DNA from: an uncultured Alphaproteobacteria bacterium
GTDB taxonomy: Bacteria > Pseudomonadota > Alphaproteobacteria > RF32 > CAG-239
Length of the DNA stretch: 64,000 nt
Direction: 5' to 3'
Assembly: GCA_944391335.1 (NCBI GenBank)
Contig: CALXTF010000003.1
Location: forward strand, 1-64,000
Below are positions 6,091-24,000 of the stretch, piece after piece (within the stretch, counting starts at the first letter, position 1; each line of letters begins with the position of its first letter). The notes beneath the pieces are model-generated. The model was not told where the DNA came from and did not search any database. It saw nothing but the letters and a program-made list of their open reading frames with translations. A program made the position numbers and the translations under genes.

Positions 6091-6867
6091 TTAGAATAAA
6101 ACTTTTGCACTTAAACCAAGTGTATAGTCATAGTCTATTATACCATTGTAGTTGCCGCCAAGGTAGTAATCACCAAATAAACCGACAGCAATATTTTCAT
6201 TAACAAAATAGTTTGCTTGAGCTTCTACCCACCATGTGTTGGTGTTTGTTCCGTCCAGTTCAAAATCATAACGGATACCTGCGTCAACAGAATATTTATC
6301 ACCGGTTTTATGTACACCGCCAAACCATGAATAATACATCGGACGGTCACTGTAATCAACACGACTATCAACACTAAAGGAGGTATATGGAAGCCAGCCA
6401 TTTGCCATTTCATAACCGACTTTAACATCAGCATTTACAGATTTATACCATCTTTCATCATTGCCATGATGTCCGTACCAGCTTTTAGGATCATATGTGT
6501 AATAACCTACGCCAATCTGACTTAACCATTGTCCTTGGCGGATATTGTATTTTGCACCGATAGCGTAGTCAAAGTTATGATCATTGTTATATTCTTGATT
6601 GGTAAAACCTTCAAAATCAAATCTGTTACCTATTTCGGCGACAATAGAAAAATTGTTGGTAATACCATAGGTGATTTCTTCTGCTAAGCGTAAATCTTCA
6701 CCAGTTCCAAAGTTATGTTTTAATTTGGTTCTGTCATAAGCCAAAGAAGTATTGGATAAGAGTTGTCCTTCTCCTGGCAAATACATTGGTGAAGTTATAT
6801 CTTCTGCATGAGCAACACCGGCGTAAACAACTGCTGCTGTTGCTAAAAGAATTGTTTTATAGTTCAT
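6091..6867 (-). CDS. Outer-membrane beta-barrel protein
   Basis: 258 residues. A clear Sec signal peptide (MNYKTILLATAAVVYAGVAHA, cleavage after AHA) is followed by alternating polar/aromatic strands throughout (e.g. FSIVAEIGNRFDF, WWVEAQANYF, IAVGLFGDYYLGG), ending in a C-terminal Phe (SAKVLF). These are the marks of a BAM-inserted barrel of perhaps 10-12 strands. It is too short for a trimeric porin of ordinary length and has no OmpA peptidoglycan domain. Its substrate or role is not evident. A strong ribosome site (AAGGAGA, 7 bases before ATG) suggests high expression. Confidence 0.82.
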   Translation of the reverse strand: MNYKTILLATAAVVYAGVAHAEDITSPMYLPGEGQLLSNTSLAYDRTKLKHNFGTGEDLRLAEEITYGITNNFSIVAEIGNRFDFEGFTNQEYNNDHNFDYAIGAKYNIRQGQWLSQIGVGYYTYDPKSWYGHHGNDERWYKSVNADVKVGYEMANGWLPYTSFSVDSRVDYSDRPMYYSWFGGVHKTGDKYSVDAGIRYDFELDGTNTNTWWVEAQANYFVNENIAVGLFGDYYLGGNYNGIIDYDYTLGLSAKVLF

Positions 6868-6893
6868 ATCAAGTCTCCTTGGTGATTAAAACT

Positions 6894-6917
6894 TTTGTGG
6901 ATATTATTACCACAAAA
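6894..6917. promoter_or_regulatory. Inverted repeat in the leader of the outer-membrane barrel gene
   Basis: TTTTGTG and CACAAAA form an inverted repeat about 30-50 bases upstream of the barrel gene's ATG. It could be an operator or a leader hairpin. No known binding site is recognised. Confidence 0.3.
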
Positions 6918-7013
6918 TTACTCTAACAGATAATTAGAAGTTTGCAATATATAAAATCAATAATATAAATACATGTTTACAATTTTAATGTCTTTAATTA
7001 AATAATTGTTTTA

Positions 7014-7619
7014 TTAATAAATGAATTTCCTTGATTTTTTTAAAAAACGACATAAAGTCATTCGACTGACTTTAAGTTCTTGTGCTATTTGAGTTTGAGT
7101 GAAATTTAGTTTTATCATTTCATCAATTTGTTCTTTATAATCATTTAATTTTAATTTTCTATTATTACAGCCATTGGGGCGGCCTAATTTTTTACCTTCT
7201 GATTTTATTCGAAGAAGAGCCTCTTTAGTCCTCTGCGATATTAAATTTCGTTCAATTTCTGCCGATAGGCCAAAGGCAAAAGCTAGAACTTTTGATTGAA
7301 TATCGGTACCTAAACGATAGTTATCTTTAATCGTCCATACTTGTGCATTAGTGCTAAGACAATAATGTAAAATAGTCATAATTTGCAGCATATTACGGCC
7401 AAAACGAGAAATTTCAGAAGCTATAATAATATCATTTTTGGTTAGTTTTTTTAATAACTTACCTAATTTTCGACGATTATAATCAATACCTCCTGATAAA
7501 GTTTCTTCAATCCAATTATTGATTGATATTCCATTCCTTTTAGCAAAGCGTTTAATTTCAAAACGTTGGTTTTCAGTTGTTTGTTTATCTGTACTAACCC
7601 TAATATATCCATATATCAT
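7014..7619 (-). CDS. Mpi-family serine recombinase (DNA invertase)
   Basis: 201-residue small serine recombinase. The resolvase catalytic domain (about 1-135) carries the nucleophile in GYIRVST (Ser9), the SEISRFGRN arginine motif and the long helix E (SAEIERNLISQRTKEAL). A GRPNGC linker and a C-terminal helix-turn-helix (about 165-195, FTQTQIAQELKVSRMTL) complete it. From memory, the start (MIYGYIRVSTDKQTTENQ) and the WTIKDNYRLG segment match the 'master DNA invertase Mpi' family, which in Bacteroides fragilis flips capsule promoters. It lies immediately upstream of, and divergent from, a polysaccharide operon. No transposase or phage genes accompany it. Invertase versus resolvase activity is inferred from family resemblance. 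Confidence 0.88.
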   Translation of the reverse strand: MIYGYIRVSTDKQTTENQRFEIKRFAKRNGISINNWIEETLSGGIDYNRRKLGKLLKKLTKNDIIIASEISRFGRNMLQIMTILHYCLSTNAQVWTIKDNYRLGTDIQSKVLAFAFGLSAEIERNLISQRTKEALLRIKSEGKKLGRPNGCNNRKLKLNDYKEQIDEMIKLNFTQTQIAQELKVSRMTLCRFLKKSRKFIY

Positions 7620-7920
7620 AATATAATCCTTTTTACTATAAAGTTATCTTTTGTTTTAAGACTTTGTAGTATATTTCATAATTTTTATTCTTAGAGCAGA
7701 TAAATTATTTTGATACTTTTAATTGTTTATTTTGGTTAGTAAAAAAATGTAAAAAAAATTATTTGCAGACGGTGAAATTTTAAAACTCTTGATTATATGA
7801 GGAGAAAATTATTTTTTTCCTATAAGGTATTTCTTATGACATCTTGGGATTAAATATAATTTTTTTCAAAATTAGGTATCAATATTTTATAAAATAACAG
7901 TTAAAATTAAGAGGTTTTTT
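7620..7920. other. 301-base AT-rich intergenic region between invertase and polysaccharide operon
   Basis: No ORF or RNA gene is visible. It must hold the divergent promoters of the invertase and the UXS gene. An AGAGG ribosome site lies just before 7921. I could not find a convincing long inverted-repeat pair that would define an invertible promoter here. Confidence 0.5.
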
Positions 7921-8886
7921 ATGAAAACAATACTTGTAACTGGTGGAACAGGTTTTTTGGGGTCTAATCTTTGTCATAGATTAGTTAATGATGGTCATAA
8001 AGTTATCTGTATGGATAATAATTATACGGGACGAATGTCAAATATAAATGATTTATTATCTTGTGATAATTTTCGTTTTATTAAACATGATATTTGTGAA
8101 ACTTTTAGTATAGATGAACATTTGGATCAGATTTATAATTTAGCGTGTCCAGCCAGTCCGCCGGCTTATCAGGGAAAACATTCAATTACAACGACAAAAA
8201 CATGTGTTTTTGGGGCAATAAATATGTTGGAATTGGCGAAAGTTCATCAAGCGACAATTCTACAAACATCAACCTCCGAAGTTTATGGTGAACCTTTGAT
8301 GCATCCTCAAGTCGAAAGTTATCGAGGAAATGTTAATCCGATAGGAATTCGCGCTTGTTATGATGAGGGTAAGCGTTGTGCGGAAAGTTTGTTCTTTGAT
8401 TATTACCGCCATGAAGGGGTAGACATTAAAGTTATTCGCATTTTTAATACTTATGGACCTAATATGGATCCACATGATGGACGCGTCGTCAGTAATTTTA
8501 TATGTCAGGCGTTGAAAGGTGAGAATATTACAATTTATGGCAATGGTTTACAAACACGTTCATTTTGTTATGTCGATGATTTAATTGAAGCTATGGTAAG
8601 AATGATGAATTCTCAAAAAGGCTTTACTGGTCCGGTTAATACAGGTAATCCCGGTGAGTTTACAATTAAAGAATTAGCGGAAAAAGTTGTTGCTCAAACA
8701 GGAAGTTTATCAAAAATCGTTTATAAGGATTTACCGGCGGATGATCCTACACAACGTCGTCCGGATATATCTTTGGCTAAAGCTAAACTTGATTGGGAGC
8801 CTCATGTTTGTCTTGATGAAGGTTTGAAACGAACAATTGAGTATTTTAGAAAAGAAATTATCCAATTATCAGCGGCGGCAGAGTAG
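7921..8886 (+). CDS. UDP-glucuronate decarboxylase-type (UDP-xylose synthase) SDR enzyme
   Basis: 321-residue extended short-chain dehydrogenase. The NAD-binding TGGTGFLG lies at residues 7-14. The active-site Tyr-Lys pair is in ACYDEGKR (Tyr147, Lys151), and YDEGKR with the nearby IRIFNTYGP and GRVVSNF segments is typical of UXS (UDP-GlcA to UDP-xylose plus CO2). A related dTDP-glucose-dehydratase-like epimerase cannot be fully excluded. First gene of the six-gene polysaccharide operon, 44 bases before galE. It would supply a pentose nucleotide sugar in the cytoplasm. No UDP-glucose dehydrogenase gene is present in the window. Confidence 0.85.
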
Positions 8887-8930
8887 GGATAATTATAACT
8901 TTTAATTTTAACTATCGAGGGGAATAAAAT

Positions 8931-9899
8931 ATGATACTAATTATGGGAGGTGCCGGCTATATTGGTTCGCACACGGTAAGACATTTATTGGATTGTGGTT
9001 ATGAATGTGTGGCTGTCGATAATTTAATTTATGGGCATCGTCAAGCTGTCGATAAACGCGCGGCTTTCGTTCAAGCCGATTTACTTGATAAAGATTCTTT
9101 AAAAAAGGTCTTTGACGATTTTAAACCAGAAGCTGTCATTCATTTTGCCGCATTTGCTTATGTTGGCGAAAGCGTCCTTGATCCGCAAAAATATTATCTT
9201 AATAACGTTATTGGAACATTTAATTTATTATCCGTAATGCAAGAGTTTTCAGTTAATAAAATTGTTTTCTCAAGTACTTGCGCCACCTATGGTGAACCAA
9301 AATATATGCCGATTGATGAACAACATCCTCAAAAACCAATAAATCCTTATGGCCGTACAAAATTGATGATTGAAAAAATTATGGCTGATTATCGGCAGGC
9401 TTACGGATTAAAATATATTGCATTACGTTATTTCAACGCAGCGGGTGCAGCAAAAGATGGTTGTATAGGCGAAAGTCATCAACCGGAAACTCATCTGATA
9501 CCTCTTGTTTTACAGGCAATAAAAGGACAACAAAAGTCCATAAAAGTCTTTGGTAATGATTATGATACACCTGACGGAACATGTATTCGTGATTATATTC
9601 ATGTGGAAGATTTGGCGCAGGCACATCGGTTAGCCTTAGAAAAAGTCAATGATTTTAGTGGTTGTCTTAATCTTGGTACAGGTAAAGGAACAAGTGTAAA
9701 TGAAATTATTAACGCCGCAGAAAAAATAAGCGGTTTAAAATGTCCGGTCGAATATGCATCTCGACGTTTGGGCGATCCTGCGCGTTTATGCGCTAATAAT
9801 GAAAAAGCAAAAGAAATTCTTGGTTGGAAACCGGAATATACTGATATTGATGATATTGTCCGTACAGCATGGAATTGGGAAATAAACAGAAAGTTTTAA
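8931..9899 (+). CDS. galE: UDP-glucose 4-epimerase
   Basis: 322-residue SDR enzyme interconverting UDP-glucose and UDP-galactose. NAD-binding GGAGYIGS at residues 6-13; catalytic Tyr140/Lys144 in NPYGRTK; SSTCATYGEP and the late GTGKGTSVNE segment are GalE-like. Length is slightly below the usual 330-340. It supplies UDP-Gal to the next gene, glf, from which it is separated by three bases. GGGGAATAAAAT precedes the ATG. Confidence 0.93.
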   Translation: MILIMGGAGYIGSHTVRHLLDCGYECVAVDNLIYGHRQAVDKRAAFVQADLLDKDSLKKVFDDFKPEAVIHFAAFAYVGESVLDPQKYYLNNVIGTFNLLSVMQEFSVNKIVFSSTCATYGEPKYMPIDEQHPQKPINPYGRTKLMIEKIMADYRQAYGLKYIALRYFNAAGAAKDGCIGESHQPETHLIPLVLQAIKGQQKSIKVFGNDYDTPDGTCIRDYIHVEDLAQAHRLALEKVNDFSGCLNLGTGKGTSVNEIINAAEKISGLKCPVEYASRRLGDPARLCANNEKAKEILGWKPEYTDIDDIVRTAWNWEINRKF

Positions 9900-9902
9900 A
9901 TT

Positions 9903-11027
9903 ATGGAAAAAGTAAAAAATCTTGTCGTCGGTTGCGGATTGTCAGGAATTGTTATTGCTGAACGTCTGGCTGAAGAAAAAAAAGAAAAAGTACTGATAAT
10001 CGATAAAAGAAAACATATAGGGGGTAATATCTTTGATTACAAAGATCGAGAAACAGGAATTATGGTTCATAAATACGGTCCTCATGTTTTCCATACTAAT
10101 GAAAAAAAAGTTTGGGATTATCTTAGCCGTTTTACTCAATGGCACCCGTTTATGTATAAAGTAAAAGCACTAATTGATGGAATAGAAGTTAATATTCCGT
10201 TTAATTTAGATAGTTTGCATAAAGTTTTTCCTAAACATATGGCCGAAAAATTTGAAAATAAATTAATCGAAAAATTTGGTTTTAATAAAAAAGTGCCTAT
10301 CTTGGATTTAAAAACCAGCGGCGATGTTGATTTACAATTTTTAGCACAATATGTTTATGAAAAAGTCTTTTTAGGATATACCTTAAAACAATGGGGCGTA
10401 AAACCAGAAAATTTAGATTCTTCGGTAAGTGCGCGCGTTCCTGTTTTTATCAGTCGGGATAGTCGATATTTCCAAGATAAATATCAAGCCATACCGGCGG
10501 AAGGTTATACGCAAATGGCGGCTAATATGCTTAAAAATCCATTGATCGAAGTTCGTCTGGGAAATGATTATAAAGATATCAGAAATAAAATAGAATATGA
10601 AAAATTATTTTATAGTGGTGCTATTGATGAATTTTTTGATTTTGAGTTTGGGGCTCTTCCTTATCGAAGTCTTGATATAATGTTGAAAACCTTTAATAAA
10701 ACATTCGTTCAATCTGGTCCTCAGATAAATTATCCTGAAAATTACGATTACACTCGTTCGGTTGAATACAAATATTACTTGGATGAAATAAGCGATAAAA
10801 CTGTCGTTTCTTATGAATTTCCATGCTCATTTAAAATAGGAAAAAATGAAAGATATTATCCTATTCCTGCAAAAGATAATGAAGTTATCTATCAAGCGTA
10901 TAAACAAAAAGCACTAACATTAAATAATGTTTTCTTTTTAGGTCGACTTGGCGATTATAAATATTACAACATGGATCAAGTCGTTTCACGAGCTTTAGAT
11001 GTGTTTAAAGGAGTAGCTGATGCGTAA
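9903..11027 (+). CDS. glf: UDP-galactopyranose mutase
   Basis: 374 residues, normal for bacterial Glf, which converts UDP-galactopyranose to UDP-galactofuranose using reduced FAD. The N-terminal flavin-binding VVGCGLSGIVIAERL (about 8-22), DKRKHIGGN, the HKYGPHVFHTN segment and the C-terminal FLGRLGDYKYYNMDQV flavin contact are diagnostic. Translationally coupled on both sides: three bases after galE and an 8-base overlap with the DUF4422-GT8 gene. It implies a galactofuranose-containing polysaccharide, with one of the downstream transferases as candidate Galf transferase. Confidence 0.95.
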   Translation: MEKVKNLVVGCGLSGIVIAERLAEEKKEKVLIIDKRKHIGGNIFDYKDRETGIMVHKYGPHVFHTNEKKVWDYLSRFTQWHPFMYKVKALIDGIEVNIPFNLDSLHKVFPKHMAEKFENKLIEKFGFNKKVPILDLKTSGDVDLQFLAQYVYEKVFLGYTLKQWGVKPENLDSSVSARVPVFISRDSRYFQDKYQAIPAEGYTQMAANMLKNPLIEVRLGNDYKDIRNKIEYEKLFYSGAIDEFFDFEFGALPYRSLDIMLKTFNKTFVQSGPQINYPENYDYTRSVEYKYYLDEISDKTVVSYEFPCSFKIGKNERYYPIPAKDNEVIYQAYKQKALTLNNVFFLGRLGDYKYYNMDQVVSRALDVFKGVADA

Positions 11028-12999
11028 AAATCCTAAAGTGAAAATTTTAATAGGTTATCATAAACCTGCATATTTGTTAAAAGATGATGTATTAACCCCT
11101 ATTCATTTGGGAAGAAAATTATCTACGGAAGTATCCAAAGACGGCGATGTGTCGCAAGAAGATTGTCAATGGATGAAAGAGAATATGATAGGCGATGATA
11201 CTGGAGACAACATTTCTTCTGAAAATCGAAAATATTGTGAATTGACAGCTCTTTATTGGGCGTGGAAAAATTATGATAAACTAGGTAATCCTGATTATAT
11301 AGGTTTTATGCAATATCGACGTCATTTTATTTTTGATGATAATTTTGATCAATCTGAACATGAAAAATTCTGGGGATGTTATCGTTTTGAAAAGGCAAAT
11401 CAAAATTATTGTCAACAGATAAAATTAAACGGAAAAGATATTGTTGAATATTTAAAAAAACATCCGGTTGATGTTTTAACAACAAAAGAAGTTGATTTTA
11501 ATCAAAGCGTTGCAGAACATTTTTCTCAAACTCTTTCTTTTCTCAATCGTGATGATTTGAAAATATGCGTTAAAACAACAGAAAATTTATTTCCTGAATA
11601 TAAAAATGTTATTAATCAATATATGAAATCTAAAAAACACTATTGGTATCATTGTTTTATAATGAAAAAAGAAATATTTTTTGAATATTGCCAATGGCTG
11701 TTCGGTGTTTTATTTGCTGTGGAAAAACAAATTGATTATACTGGTTATACAATAGCGGCTAAGAGAACTATTGCTTATCTTGGCGAACGTATGTGGGGCG
11801 TTTTTCTGAATGCTAAAAAGGATAAACTTGTTATCGATAATCTCGATTTAACTTTTATTGATGAAACCTCTTATCAATTCATACCAAAGCCTTTCTTCGA
11901 TAAAAACAATGTGGCTGTAGTTTTTGCTTGTGATAATAATTATGTTCCTTATTTATCAGTAGCCATACAATCAATTGTTGATCATAAAAAACTTGAAAAT
12001 AATTATGATATTATCATTTTAAATAATGGTATTATACCTTATTATCAGAAACTTCTAAAAGAAACTTATCAATGTAATAATGTTAGTATTCGTTTTTATG
12101 ATGTTTCTAATTTGTATTACACTTATCATAATTTGTTTTATAGTCATACTTATTATTCTCCGACAGTTTATTTTCGTTTTTTTATTCCCGAAATTTTTAC
12201 ATCATATTCACATATCATATATCTTGATTGTGATTTAATATGTTTAAGGGATGTGGCAGATCTTTATCAACAAAAACTTGGAAATAATTTACTTGGAGTA
12301 GTTCGAGATATTGAATATTTGCGCATTTATAATGAAAATAAAAATGTTAGGGAATATTGTGATAATGTTTTGCAAATGAAAGATTATATACATTATTTTA
12401 ATTCTGGCGTTTTATTATTTAATATTAAACAATGTCAAAAATTTAATTTATCGCAAAAACTTTTACAACAATTGCAATGCATCGGAAAACCAATGATTGT
12501 CGATCAAGATATTTTAAATTCTGTATGTGAAGGAAAAGTATTGTATCTTGATCAATGTTGGAATGTTGAATGGCATTCTTATTATCTTTATGGAAATCTT
12601 TTACCATATCAAGTACCAGATATATTTTATGGTCAATATTTGAAAGCAATAAAAAATCCATTTATACTGCATTATGCCATAGATGTTAAACCTTGGGATT
12701 GTCCGGAGCATTGTACGGCAGAGATTTTTTGGCATTATGCCGCAAAAACACCTTTTTTTGTTCAAATTATATATAAGCATTTTGAACAAAAAATCTATGC
12801 GTTAGCTCAAAAGTTAGAGCAATTGCCAATAAATAATGTTCAAACCAATCATCAGAAAAAGAACCATAATAATCTGTTTAAATACTATAAATATAAAATT
12901 TTATCTGCAATTTTGTTTGGTGAAAAAAAACAATATTATCAACAAAAAAAGAAAATAATTAAACAGCAAATTAAAGCTCAACGGAGAAATATCGCATGA
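11020..12999 (+). CDS. Two-domain glycosyltransferase: DUF4422 fused to GT8
   Basis: 659 residues. Residues ~8-255 match DUF4422, a glycosyltransferase-like domain common in capsule loci (ILIGYHKPAYL, ELTALYWAWKNY, GFMQYRRHF). Residues ~295-545 are a GT8 domain with the metal-binding DCD at 403-405 (YLDCDLICL), DQDILN and HYAIDVKPW. The sugar transferred cannot be deduced; GT8 enzymes often use UDP-Glc or UDP-Gal and retain configuration. A basic tail (about 620-659) carries the KYKILSAILFGEKKQYY motif shared with three other enzymes in this window. Overlaps glf by 8 bases and the next gene by 4 (ATGA). The two domains may perform consecutive transfers. Confidence 0.88.
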   Translation: MRKNPKVKILIGYHKPAYLLKDDVLTPIHLGRKLSTEVSKDGDVSQEDCQWMKENMIGDDTGDNISSENRKYCELTALYWAWKNYDKLGNPDYIGFMQYRRHFIFDDNFDQSEHEKFWGCYRFEKANQNYCQQIKLNGKDIVEYLKKHPVDVLTTKEVDFNQSVAEHFSQTLSFLNRDDLKICVKTTENLFPEYKNVINQYMKSKKHYWYHCFIMKKEIFFEYCQWLFGVLFAVEKQIDYTGYTIAAKRTIAYLGERMWGVFLNAKKDKLVIDNLDLTFIDETSYQFIPKPFFDKNNVAVVFACDNNYVPYLSVAIQSIVDHKKLENNYDIIILNNGIIPYYQKLLKETYQCNNVSIRFYDVSNLYYTYHNLFYSHTYYSPTVYFRFFIPEIFTSYSHIIYLDCDLICLRDVADLYQQKLGNNLLGVVRDIEYLRIYNENKNVREYCDNVLQMKDYIHYFNSGVLLFNIKQCQKFNLSQKLLQQLQCIGKPMIVDQDILNSVCEGKVLYLDQCWNVEWHSYYLYGNLLPYQVPDIFYGQYLKAIKNPFILHYAIDVKPWDCPEHCTAEIFWHYAAKTPFFVQIIYKHFEQKIYALAQKLEQLPINNVQTNHQKKNHNNLFKYYKYKILSAILFGEKKQYYQQKKKIIKQQIKAQRRNIA

Positions 13000-14042
13000 C
13001 TGATAGAATAAATGTAAGTTTTACGGTTAATGATGCTTATGCAAAATATTTAGCAACGGCAATAACTTCTATTTTAGAAAATGCTCATGAGGATGATGAT
13101 TTATATTTTTATATCATAACCAGCGATCTTAGTTTGGAAAGTAAAAGAAAAATTGAGACATTAAAAACAATAAAAAATTTTAGCATTGAATATATTACAT
13201 TATCATCTGATGACATTCCGGCAATACCGGAAAATAACAATGCTCATGTTACTCAGGAAACTAATTTTCGTTTAAGAATTGCCAGCTTAAAACCAGATTT
13301 AGATAAAATTTTATGTCTTGATTGTGATTTGGTTGTCGTTTCTTCTCTTTCAAAACTTTACAACATTGAACTTAATGACTATTGGGCGGCTTGCGCTATT
13401 GATGCTCCGAATTATGGCGGTTGTAATAATGAATTTATTTTGAAAGCCGATTTGAAACAATATTTTAATACCGGTGTTTGTTTGATAAATCTCAAAGCTT
13501 GGCGAAAAAATAAGGTGGAAGAGAAAATTTTTGATTGTTTACATAAGTATTCATCAATACTGCGATATCCGGATCAAGATTTACTTAATCTTGCTTTAAA
13601 TGAACATGTTTTAGAATTAAATCATCAATGGAATGTATTTGTTGGGTGTTTAGATTTATTCTATCCTCTTGATATACAAAAATTTATTTTACAAAATCCA
13701 CGGATTATTCATTGGGCAGGTCGAGAAAAACCGTGGAAATATCCAACAGTGGCTTTGAGTGATTATTTTTGGAAATACGCAAGACAAACGCCTTTTTATG
13801 AGGAAATATTGTTTAATAATTTGACACAAAAAATCTTACCACAATCAATCGTACAAGAAAAAATATCTTATACGGATGATTATTTACTAACTAAACTGAA
13901 ATATGCAAAATGTAAGTTACTTTCAAAATTTACTTTTGGAACAAAAAGATCTTTATATCGTCAGCGAAAAAAAGAATTAAAAAAACAACTTAAACTTATT
14001 AAACATAAGTATAAAGAGCAGGAAAAGCAAAAAGAGTCTTGA
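12996..14042 (+). CDS. Glycosyltransferase family 8 protein
   Basis: 348 residues. The GT8 fold covers about 5-275: DCD metal site at 109-111 (CLDCDLVVV), FNTGVCLINLKAW, YPDQDLLN and HWAGREKPW. It resembles the GT8 half of the preceding fusion, so the two probably arose by duplication. The C-terminal tail carries KCKLLSKFTFGTKRSLY (residues 305-321), the shared motif. The start overlaps the upstream stop as ATGA and the following gene begins at the next base, so the three transferases are translationally coupled. Acceptor and donor sugars are unknown. Confidence 0.9.
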   Translation: MTDRINVSFTVNDAYAKYLATAITSILENAHEDDDLYFYIITSDLSLESKRKIETLKTIKNFSIEYITLSSDDIPAIPENNNAHVTQETNFRLRIASLKPDLDKILCLDCDLVVVSSLSKLYNIELNDYWAACAIDAPNYGGCNNEFILKADLKQYFNTGVCLINLKAWRKNKVEEKIFDCLHKYSSILRYPDQDLLNLALNEHVLELNHQWNVFVGCLDLFYPLDIQKFILQNPRIIHWAGREKPWKYPTVALSDYFWKYARQTPFYEEILFNNLTQKILPQSIVQEKISYTDDYLLTKLKYAKCKLLSKFTFGTKRSLYRQRKKELKKQLKLIKHKYKEQEKQKES

Positions 14043-15146
14043 ATGATGATTAAAATTTCAATTATACTTCCTGTCTATAATACGGCCAAATATCTTGAAA
14101 AATGTTTGAAGGCATTAGCAGATCAAACATTACATGAAATTGAAATATTATGCGTTGATGATGGTTCCACGGATGATAGTTATAATATTTTGCAGAAATA
14201 TGCTGATTTAGATTGTAGATTTAGAATATTTAAACAATCTCATTTAGGACCTGCGGCGGCGCGAAATATCGGATTAAATTATGCTTTGGCACCATATATT
14301 ATGTTTTGTGATGCGGATGATTGGTATGAACCGGATTATTGTCGGATAATGTATGAAATTATGGAAAACAATCAAGTAGATGTTGCTGTTTGTCATACAA
14401 ATCTTGTTTTTGAAGATAAAAATGATTATTTACGTCGACAAGAGACCAAGGAAGAATTATATAATTCCTCTTATGAAGGAAAACTTCTTTTAGACCATTG
14501 TTTATTACATAAAACAAGTGTCGTTTTGTGGAATAAAATTTTTCGTAAAAGTATTATTGAAGAACAAGAAATATTTTTCCCCGACGGATGTGATCATGAA
14601 GATGACGCTTTTTGGATACTCTATGGACTTCAAGCCCAAACGATCTTTTTTTTATCAAAAAAACTTTATAATTACCGTATTCGTCCAAATTCTATTATGA
14701 GCAGCTATTTTATTCATCAACCTAAAAATAAATATGAACGTTTTAAAATATGTAATTTTGTGTATAATATTTTAAAAAGAAAAAATATATTAAATCAAAA
14801 ACTATCTGTTGTTTCAGAGTTTTTTAAAAGGCAGATGGAAATGATATTTTTTGAATTATTTTCCCCTCAAGAATTACAATCAATGGCTTTTGTCCTTAAC
14901 CGATATCAAAAGGATTATATTTTTATTGAAAATAAAGGTCAAATATTTATAGCTCCGATTGTAGGTATTCAAGCAGCAAATAAAATTCTTTTTATCAAGT
15001 ATTGGCTGCTTTCTAAAATTTGTATTGGTTTTAAAAGAAAAGAGTATAAAGAAAAAAGAAAAATCATACGCAATCAAATAAAAATAAAAAAAATAATAAA
15101 TAAAAAATATTCATCTGATTTTAACAAATATTTGAACCTTAATTGA
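14043..15146 (+). CDS. Glycosyltransferase family 2 (GT-A) protein
   Basis: 367 residues. Typical GT2 start (ISIILPVYNTAKYLEKCL), DDGSTDD near 39-45, the metal-binding DADD at 90-93 and a late HEDD probable base. The donor is not predictable from sequence; processing of UDP-Gal or UDP-Galf is possible from context. The C-terminal basic tail carries KYWLLSKICIGFKRKEY (residues 319-335), the motif shared with the two preceding transferases and the pyruvyl transferase at 55.7 kb. Last gene of the operon. The transferase genes look more AT-rich than the housekeeping genes, which suggests horizontal origin. Confidence 0.92.
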   Translation: MMIKISIILPVYNTAKYLEKCLKALADQTLHEIEILCVDDGSTDDSYNILQKYADLDCRFRIFKQSHLGPAAARNIGLNYALAPYIMFCDADDWYEPDYCRIMYEIMENNQVDVAVCHTNLVFEDKNDYLRRQETKEELYNSSYEGKLLLDHCLLHKTSVVLWNKIFRKSIIEEQEIFFPDGCDHEDDAFWILYGLQAQTIFFLSKKLYNYRIRPNSIMSSYFIHQPKNKYERFKICNFVYNILKRKNILNQKLSVVSEFFKRQMEMIFFELFSPQELQSMAFVLNRYQKDYIFIENKGQIFIAPIVGIQAANKILFIKYWLLSKICIGFKRKEYKEKRKIIRNQIKIKKIINKKYSSDFNKYLNLN

Positions 15147-21097: not shown

Positions 21098-24000
21098 CTA
21101 GAAAGCGTAATCTAAACCAAGGCCAAAGGCGGAACCTTCATAATCTGTGCCAAAGGTATAGTTCGCCCAACAATAAGCAGAAAGATTGTCTGTGAAGCTG
21201 TAGCTTCCTCCCATTTCTATCCGGCCTAATGTCGCATCTTCTATTGCGTCAACATTATCCATATTTGTAACATGAACATCTCCGCCGGAAATTAAAGTTT
21301 GGACAATACTTGGCTTAATATAAGCATTCGCATATCCTTCATCCATCATAAAGGTCTTGGTTAGTTTCAGACCAGCCTCTAATTCAACTTCATCTATATT
21401 GTCATATCTGGCTTCTTTACCAAAGCAATCTTTTAGATTGTCGTAATCGATATGTGTATAGTAAACACCTAATTCCGGCGTCAGATATAGCGTGTCGCTT
21501 AAAGCGTAATCATAGCCGCCTTCAACGCTTGCGCCAAACTCATATCCATCCGTATCCGCTTTCATGCCGTCGTCTGTTTTAAAGTCTGCTTTCTGAATAC
21601 CACCGTATAGAGTTCCAAAACCCCACCAATTGTTCTTATCATAACGATAATATAAACCAGCTATATAACTGTCTATATCTATCTCTGAACCAATCGTTGA
21701 ATAATATCTGTCTCCAGCTCCATCCATATCATAGTTACCTTGACGATATGAAACAAATATACCTAAACGGTTGTTGATATCATGTTGAATGTCTCCTCCG
21801 GCTTCAATCCCCCATATTTTGGCATCAATATCAACAGGTGAATCAATATTGGAAACATAATATGTCGGATTTACCCATAAATTGTAATAAGGTTCGCCAT
21901 TCCAATGACTGTCAACAAAACTGCAAGATTTGCTGTATACACGGCTGTTCTTTACTTGATTGCTGATGTTGTCAATCATACCGCGGGTTTGTTCTAAAGC
22001 TGCGGCAGGTAAGGCATCATAAGCTATAACTTCTGCATATACAAGATTTGTTGTACTTGGTATGTCGCCGCTTGGTTCATCGGCATCAGGTTCGTCTGTG
22101 CCAGGTTCATCTGTGCCAGGTTCGTCTGTGCCAGGTTCATCTGTGCCAGGTTCATCTGTGCCAGGTTCATCAGGTTCTTCAACCATAAAATCTTCATTTT
22201 CTACATCATTCATAAACAATGACCATTCATGTTCTGTCGTTCCTTCTCCGGTCATCGCAATATCAAACATGTATGGACTTTGATAAACACGATATACTTC
22301 AAAGGATTCTTCACCACCTTCGTTATCATTAGTAGATTGAGCAAAGACAATACTTTCTCCACGAATATCCGCATCAGAGCTTGGATGTATAATCAATTGC
22401 GTCGTTCCTTCAACATCACCGGTTATATGAAGTTCATCTGCTTTCATATTTTCAACGTCAACATCTATGTGCAGAAAGTTCGTTCCTGTCGAAGCATTCC
22501 AGCCTGCAAGATTAATTGTGTCATATAAATTGTTATGGATATCTAATGTCGCGTTTCTTAGTGTTAAAACCGTAACAGGTTCTGATCCATCTCCTGTCGT
22601 GAAATTACCTACACTCGCTTGTGCCTCATCGTCATATTGATGTTTTCCTAACCGAAGTGTCGTACCTTCAACCAAAACCTGATTAGCGTTGATAATATCG
22701 TTGTTCATACTGATGTATTGAGTTGTGTGTCCTGTACTGGTGTCTCCTTGAATCTTGTCGGTAACAGGTACTTCATCACCGATAAATGCAAGATTATAGT
22801 AATAACCATCATAGGTTACAGAACTTCCATCTTCAAAACCACCCTCAATACTGTCATTAATAACCCAATTACCGCCATCACTTACATCAAAAGTAATCGT
22901 TGGTGCTGTATCTGAGCTGTTTGAACCTTGTATATATATCGCATTATAATCTTTACCTTCACTATCTTGAGTATAGTTCCCTGATATAAGTCTATCTTGT
23001 CCGTTAGTGGTAAAGGTTAAATTCTGAGATGTATATACCGCGCCACCAAATGCAAGATTATCAGCATTTGTTGTTTTAGCATAGTTATTGGTAAAATCAC
23101 CGCTAATGCTATCTATGGTGCCGCTGCCGCCGCTATAAAATGCTCCTCCGCGTGCAGAAGCTTGTGTGCTTTGGGCATAGTTGCCGCTAAAATCACCCGT
23201 AATGGTTCCAAGAGATGAATCATGATTATATATAGCACCACCTTCAGCTCCCAAAGCTGCCTCTACATTATTGTCTGTAAAGTTACCGGTAATGCTTGTA
23301 ATCGCATTCGGTGCAGCTAAATTATAAATAGCTCCGCCTTGGGCATAAGCTGTCTGTGAAGTTGCCGTGTTTCCTTCAAAATCTCCAGAAATAGATTGAA
23401 TGATTCCGCGATTGTGTACAGCTCCTCCTTGGGCATAATTGCTGCTATCTACCGTGTTATTCGTAAAATCTCCCGTAATATTACCTATTGTGTTAGTGGA
23501 TGAGTAATTATAAATGGCTCCTCCAAGAGCTATTCCATTAGTTCCTGTTGCGGTATTGTTTTCAAAATTACCATCTATATCACCTATTGCACCATTGTTA
23601 AAAATAGCTCCTCCTTGGGAATCGGTATTTCCTGTAGCTTGGTTGTTGCTAAAGTCGCCTATAATTTCATCTATTGTAGCAGAGGAAGATTCATTATATA
23701 TGGCTCCGCCTTGTGCGTAAATTGTATTTGATTGTACGGTATTCCCATCAAAATTACTGGTAATTGTTCCAATTGAACCATGGTTGTTAATGGCTCCACC
23801 TAAAGCCGTGGTTTGTGCTGATGTGGAATTATTCGCAAAATCACCATTTATTTCTGTAATTGAACCACTAACATTGTATATGGCTCCACCCCATGCCGCC
23901 ATATTCGTACTTGTCGCGGTGTTATCGGTAAAATTACCGGTAATGGTTCCTATTTGATTTGTATTGTAGATGGCTCCGCCATGTGCATCATTGTTCGCCA

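Follow-up and report, generated by a model that had tools for sequence, protein, structure and literature searches.

Does an Mpi-type recombinase gene that lies 301 nt from a divergent glycan operon, in the genome of an uncultured alphaproteobacterium, invert the promoter of that operon, or does the enzyme act on other sites? Mpi-type switching is best known in Bacteroides, where such enzymes switch capsules. The gene, its paralogs, its relatives and its neighbours are taken in turn below. The window referred to throughout is the whole stretch of 64,000 nucleotides that was analysed, which lies on contig C3 of the host genome; its features are collected in Table 1, together with paralogs from related genomes. 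The reading that we favour, with a probability of roughly 0.6, is that the window enzyme would be an orphan invertase acting elsewhere in the chromosome, likely on surface-gene promoters, and that the neighbouring operon is not its target.

An Mpi-family gene and its setting

The window protein scored 299.6 bits against the NCBIfam model NF009949 ("master DNA invertase Mpi family"; cut-off 272), with the next best NCBIfam model reaching 38 bits, and it scored 112 bits against Pfam Resolvase. Residues R7, S9, R72 and R75 were unvarying in an alignment of the protein with about 15 relatives, and helix-turn-helix matches were found at residues 154-195, at scores under Pfam's own cut-offs. Judged by the curated cut-off, its small size, the catalytic serine and arginines and the C-terminal helix-turn-helix, this is an intact, genuine gene for an Mpi-family small serine DNA invertase. 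The family assignment made in the first-pass annotation is thereby borne out, and by profile score (299.6 versus 38 bits) the protein does not group with plasmid and transposon resolvases, a grouping that would have counted against that annotation. The same annotation had correctly described a divergent polysaccharide operon of six co-directional genes beside the recombinase (7921-15146) and autotransporters in the window, whose beta-domains lie at 224-946 and 21173-21844.

Table 1. Coordinates of features in the window and of dead Mpi paralogs in related genomes.
Feature	Coordinates	Strand	Basis or remark
258-aa protein with N-terminal signal-like stretch	6091..6867	-	No Pfam match; downstream neighbour of Mpi
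Spacer between Mpi and 6091-6867	6868..7013	-	Promoter-like TTGCAA..TAGAGT and 5' UTR, both also present in G010
Mpi-family serine recombinase, 201 aa	7014..7619	-	Catalytic residues R7, S9, R72, R75 intact
Divergent gap, 301 nt	7620..7920		Repeat scan: no inverted-repeat pair above chance
Conserved promoter-proximal block CGGTGAAATTT..GATTATAT..GAAAATTATTTTTT, ~50 nt	7767..7817	+	Comparison with two congeners
NAD-dependent sugar epimerase/dehydratase, operon gene 1	7921..8886	+	Pfam; copies 78-87% identical in L044, L137, L138
GalE-like NAD epimerase	8931..9899	+	Pfam
UDP-galactopyranose mutase	9903..11027	+	Pfam
DUF4422 + GT8 glycosyltransferase	11020..12999	+	Pfam
GT8 glycosyltransferase	12996..14042	+	Pfam
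GT2 glycosyltransferase	14043..15146	+	Pfam
Dead paralog	L062:2670-3254	+	Active-site arginines replaced
Dead paralog	L047:7211-7786	-	Active-site arginines replaced
Dead paralog	L055:7034-7639	-	Active-site arginines replaced
Dead paralog	L041:3719-4273	+	Active-site arginines replaced
Further dead paralogs	L250-L256, L270-L272		Active-site arginines replaced

In a tree of 127 rows, the window protein groups with the copies from two congeners, G004 and G010 (support 100/98), and lies outside the 36-row clade (99/89) that holds all 20 Bacteroidota rows alongside Clostridia, Treponema and others; the alphaproteobacterial rows are scattered across several deep clades. The rows are the top-scoring matches to an alphaproteobacterial query, a sampling that favours its near relatives, so which way any ancient exchange ran cannot be read from the tree. 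Its topology does speak against a recent import of the window gene from Bacteroidota; the first-pass annotation had raised transfer from Bacteroidetes as a possibility.

Inverted repeats beside Mpi genes

Neither the divergent gap nor the entire window contained an inverted-repeat pair better than those of shuffled sequence, in agreement with the initial remark that the gap held no clear pair, and the window gene lacks the adjacent pair that marks a local promoter-invertase cassette. Repeats were also absent from the flanks of its two closest orthologs, those in G010 (75% identical) and G004 (74%). Elsewhere in the host genome, no sites belonging to the window enzyme turned up in some 140 kb of sequence from surface loci and Mpi regions, no pair was common to the chosen stretches of surface loci that were read, and a pattern search of the genome for paired AACGNAC sites gave none; the same search gave matches in G004 and G010, including the already known pair at locus L060.

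The host genome encodes six resolvase-domain genes, three of them Mpi-like, on contigs C3 (the window gene), C22 and C29. The C22 paralog does have an adjacent pair, a 22-nt inverted repeat with arms 111 nt apart (one arm TACATAAACCACCGTCTATTTG; L037:2500-2655), which is located between the recombinase gene and a divergent lipoprotein-like gene, and which encloses a TTGCAA-18-TATAAT sequence that, as assembled, points at the recombinase. This segment is the best candidate for an invertible promoter in the host genome. The third Mpi-like gene, on C29 (L038), has an integrase-like gene and another resolvase on its contig, and the locus looks like an integrated mobile element.

Of the 33 genomes from the same family, 26 had Mpi matches, usually several per genome, whereas in sampled genomes outside the family the matches were at 33% identity or less. 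Just 3' of some of these genes in the relatives lies a repeat-flanked segment of 67-141 nt, followed by glycan genes. At L060, a 27-nt perfect pair just 3' of the recombinase precedes a gene for an aminotransferase that looks DegT-like by eye, while at L044, in G002, a 17-nt perfect pair with arms 106 nt apart is followed by a GT2-like gene and then by an epimerase 78% identical to that of operon gene 1. At L047, L062, L055 and L041, the pair is followed by a second recombinase-like gene and then by glycan genes; at L063, it separates the recombinase from an Opacity/OMP_b-brl outer-membrane gene; at L066, it lies ahead of a gene with a hexapeptide-transferase repeat; and L147 has a 23-nt pair. 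The repeats of L047 and L060 contain AACGTTCGT, which resembles what we take to be the B. fragilis Mpi site, ARACGTWCGT. With a repeat-flanked segment adjoining the gene, the C22 paralog and the enzymes of L044, L060, L047 and L041 are like the local invertases Hin or B. fragilis Tsr19/BF2766 (PMC4747536), whereas the window gene, which has no such adjacent segment, is unlike them.

Strong and unmistakable pairs (score of at least 13, a cut-off set after inspection, with arms 40-250 nt apart) lay beside only 8 of 51 Mpi genes, as compared with 3 of 181 control genes (Fisher p=0.0003); with a shuffle-based cut-off, pairs were found at 11/51 and 21/181, respectively (p=0.10). Among 80 genome loci, a set that overlaps the 51 genes only partly, contig ends fell within 700 nt of the Mpi gene in 22 cases against about 5 expected, and four contigs (two of G028 and one each of G011 and G022) start within or at an arm of a repeat. 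Such ends would fit a variable orientation of the segments, although other repeats would cause the same. A strict sigma-70 scan of the repeat-flanked segments was not significant overall; a looser pattern, TTGN3-N16..18-TATA, chosen afterwards and at most suggestive, was present in 5 of 11 segments where 1.5 were expected (7 of 1000 shuffles). Overall, the sister enzymes in the host genome and in its relatives look like neighbours of flippable promoters for surface genes, and the earlier idea that this lineage may switch its surface with Mpi-type enzymes is supported by the candidate segments at C22 and in the relatives, though not for the operon adjacent to the window gene.

An apparent inversion between L156 and L051/L056 was rejected, as the difference consists of a tRNA gene in opposite orientations; a tRNA gene (anticodon CGT, read by eye) lies just 3' of Mpi at all three of these loci, in either orientation. 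Upstream of Mpi at L174, L188, L196 and L178 there is a homologous stretch whose orientation is opposite between loci, and its peptide resembles, by eye, a restriction-enzyme specificity region, making it a possible invertible specificity domain.

The second recombinase-like gene appears to be a catalytically dead Mpi paralog, in which R7, R72, R75 and E123 are lost in every readable copy and S9 in most, and which scores only 50-95 bits against NF009949. Six genomes of the family carry ten copies between them, and the host genome of the window has none. In all ten cases, sugar-nucleotide or glycosyltransferase genes (part named by eye) come directly next on the same strand, and four of the dead paralogs are closely preceded by an active Mpi gene and a segment with flanking repeats. 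A dead paralog leading glycan operons is the most novel association that we saw, its role being putative.

Could the window gene be a passenger, that is, a resolvase or an inactive leftover of a mobile element without a substrate in the host genome? The failure to find sites for the window enzyme in the window and in the ~140 kb of the same genome would fit this explanation, as would the position of some Mpi relatives beside a tRNA gene and the integrase-like gene and second resolvase on the contig of the C29 paralog; we nevertheless think it unlikely, since the Mpi invertase model scores far above resolvase and transposase models and the gene is intact and, at 74-75% identity, conserved across three congeners, which points to selection.

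The two neighbours of the window gene

The complete six-gene operon is found in two congeners (G010:C2 and G004:C87), with the first gene 85-87% identical. The stretches fetched around these operons, 10.7 and 11.1 kb in length and both bounded by a contig end that lies a few hundred bases 5' of the operon, contained no Mpi match. Directly upstream of the operon, the conserved promoter-proximal block has the same orientation in the host genome, G004 and G010, and since this holds at congener loci without an Mpi match in those stretches, the operon promoter looks fixed. Part of this block, AGACGGTG at 7767-7774, was first read as a half-site because it forms the core of the C22 repeats, recurs at the L044 repeat, and is found outside open frames in the host genome only here and in the two C22 repeat arms. 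Its interpretation as a relic half-site was rejected, since the block recurs upstream of the operon in G004 and, as a less exact match in which CGGTGAAATTT is kept, in G010, with no Mpi gene adjoining.

These observations bear on the proposal that degenerate or distant sites allow the enzyme to invert the promoter of the neighbouring operon. Adjacency speaks for it, as do the AGACGGTG that the gap shares with the C22 and L044 repeats and the arrangement in G002, where an Mpi gene 65% identical to that of the window is followed by the 17-nt pair and by an operon with the operon gene 1-like epimerase as its second gene; yet we consider it highly improbable, because the gap AGACGGTG is part of a block conserved where Mpi does not adjoin, no partner site for it was found, and the gap has no repeat pair. 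Control of the adjacent operon, as envisaged in the first-pass annotation, is thus unsupported: block orientation is conserved at congener loci with no Mpi match in the stretches fetched, the gap lacks repeats, and the adjacency itself is not conserved. The window Mpi does not appear to flip the neighbouring glycan operon in cis, and their adjacency would be a neighbourhood accident of the host species.

On the other side of the recombinase, the product of 6091-6867 is probably an outer-membrane protein, and of the 12 genus relatives searched, 11 have its gene, each in one copy. The Mpi ortholog of G010 likewise precedes the ortholog of this gene, and that of G004 adjoins neither it nor the glycan operon. 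Within the 5' UTR, a palindromic element TTTTGTGG..CCACAAAAG (6890-6920), kept in G010, could form a regulatory hairpin. That the enzyme switches this downstream neighbour, as relatives may do with the gene past their Mpi, is highly improbable despite the shared adjacency in the host genome and G010 and the repeat pairs just 3' of the recombinase at other Mpi loci, since the promoter-like sequence of the spacer has one orientation in both species and no flanking inverted repeats, and since the gene is found in most genus relatives, several of them without any Mpi match. Because the operon block keeps its orientation and the promoter region of 6091-6867 matches between the host genome and G010, neither neighbour of the window Mpi looks switched.

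A putative orphan enzyme and a tentative family-wide system

An orphan "master" invertase that acts elsewhere, the reading we prefer, would dimerise on short, imperfectly palindromic sites, bring together two inverted sites, separated by about 70-160 nt, at another place in the chromosome, and flip the segment between them, most likely surface-gene promoters. Action in trans is in line with two glycan loci that have site-like repeats in genomes, G017 and G015, whose Mpi genes lie elsewhere: at L256 (G017), where the nearest 1.5 kb are free of Mpi genes, there is a ACGGTCGTTT pair (p=0.015), and at L253 (G015) there are several AACGTT/CGTTCGTT motifs, whose best pair falls short of significance (p=0.34). 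Upstream of the dead paralog of L253, whose 1.5-kb flanks contain no Mpi gene, a stretch of 130 nt takes in three AACGTT/CGTTCGTT-like motifs; this cluster is a possible multi-site, trans-acted promoter.

Mpi of B. fragilis is a serine invertase that acts as master of at least 13 invertible regions (PMC5903667, citing Coyne 2003). The window enzyme is like it in belonging to the same curated family and in that adjacent repeats were not found; it is unlike it in that the alphaproteobacterial clade lies outside the sampled Bacteroidota clade (B. fragilis Mpi itself not being among the rows) and in that the glycan operon beside it is apparently not switched.

For the family as a whole, we put forward a more tentative scheme, to which we give somewhat less than even odds, in which these gut alphaproteobacteria have their own Bacteroides-like system. 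Active Mpi enzymes would flip short promoter segments upstream of glycan operons, the dead paralogs that lead many of these operons would bind the same sites and control inversion or transcription, a role comparable to that of UpxY/UpxZ in Bacteroides, and the window orphan would be a trans-acting member. A read-based survey from 2018 detected inversions in none of four alphaproteobacterial datasets (PMC5903667), and none of the inverton papers that our literature search brought up names Alphaproteobacteria. If the cassettes of the relatives do flip, small-genome gut alphaproteobacteria would vary their surface sugars and outer-membrane proteins via the same enzyme family, and the switching system, if real, would include an unusual dead-invertase leader gene.
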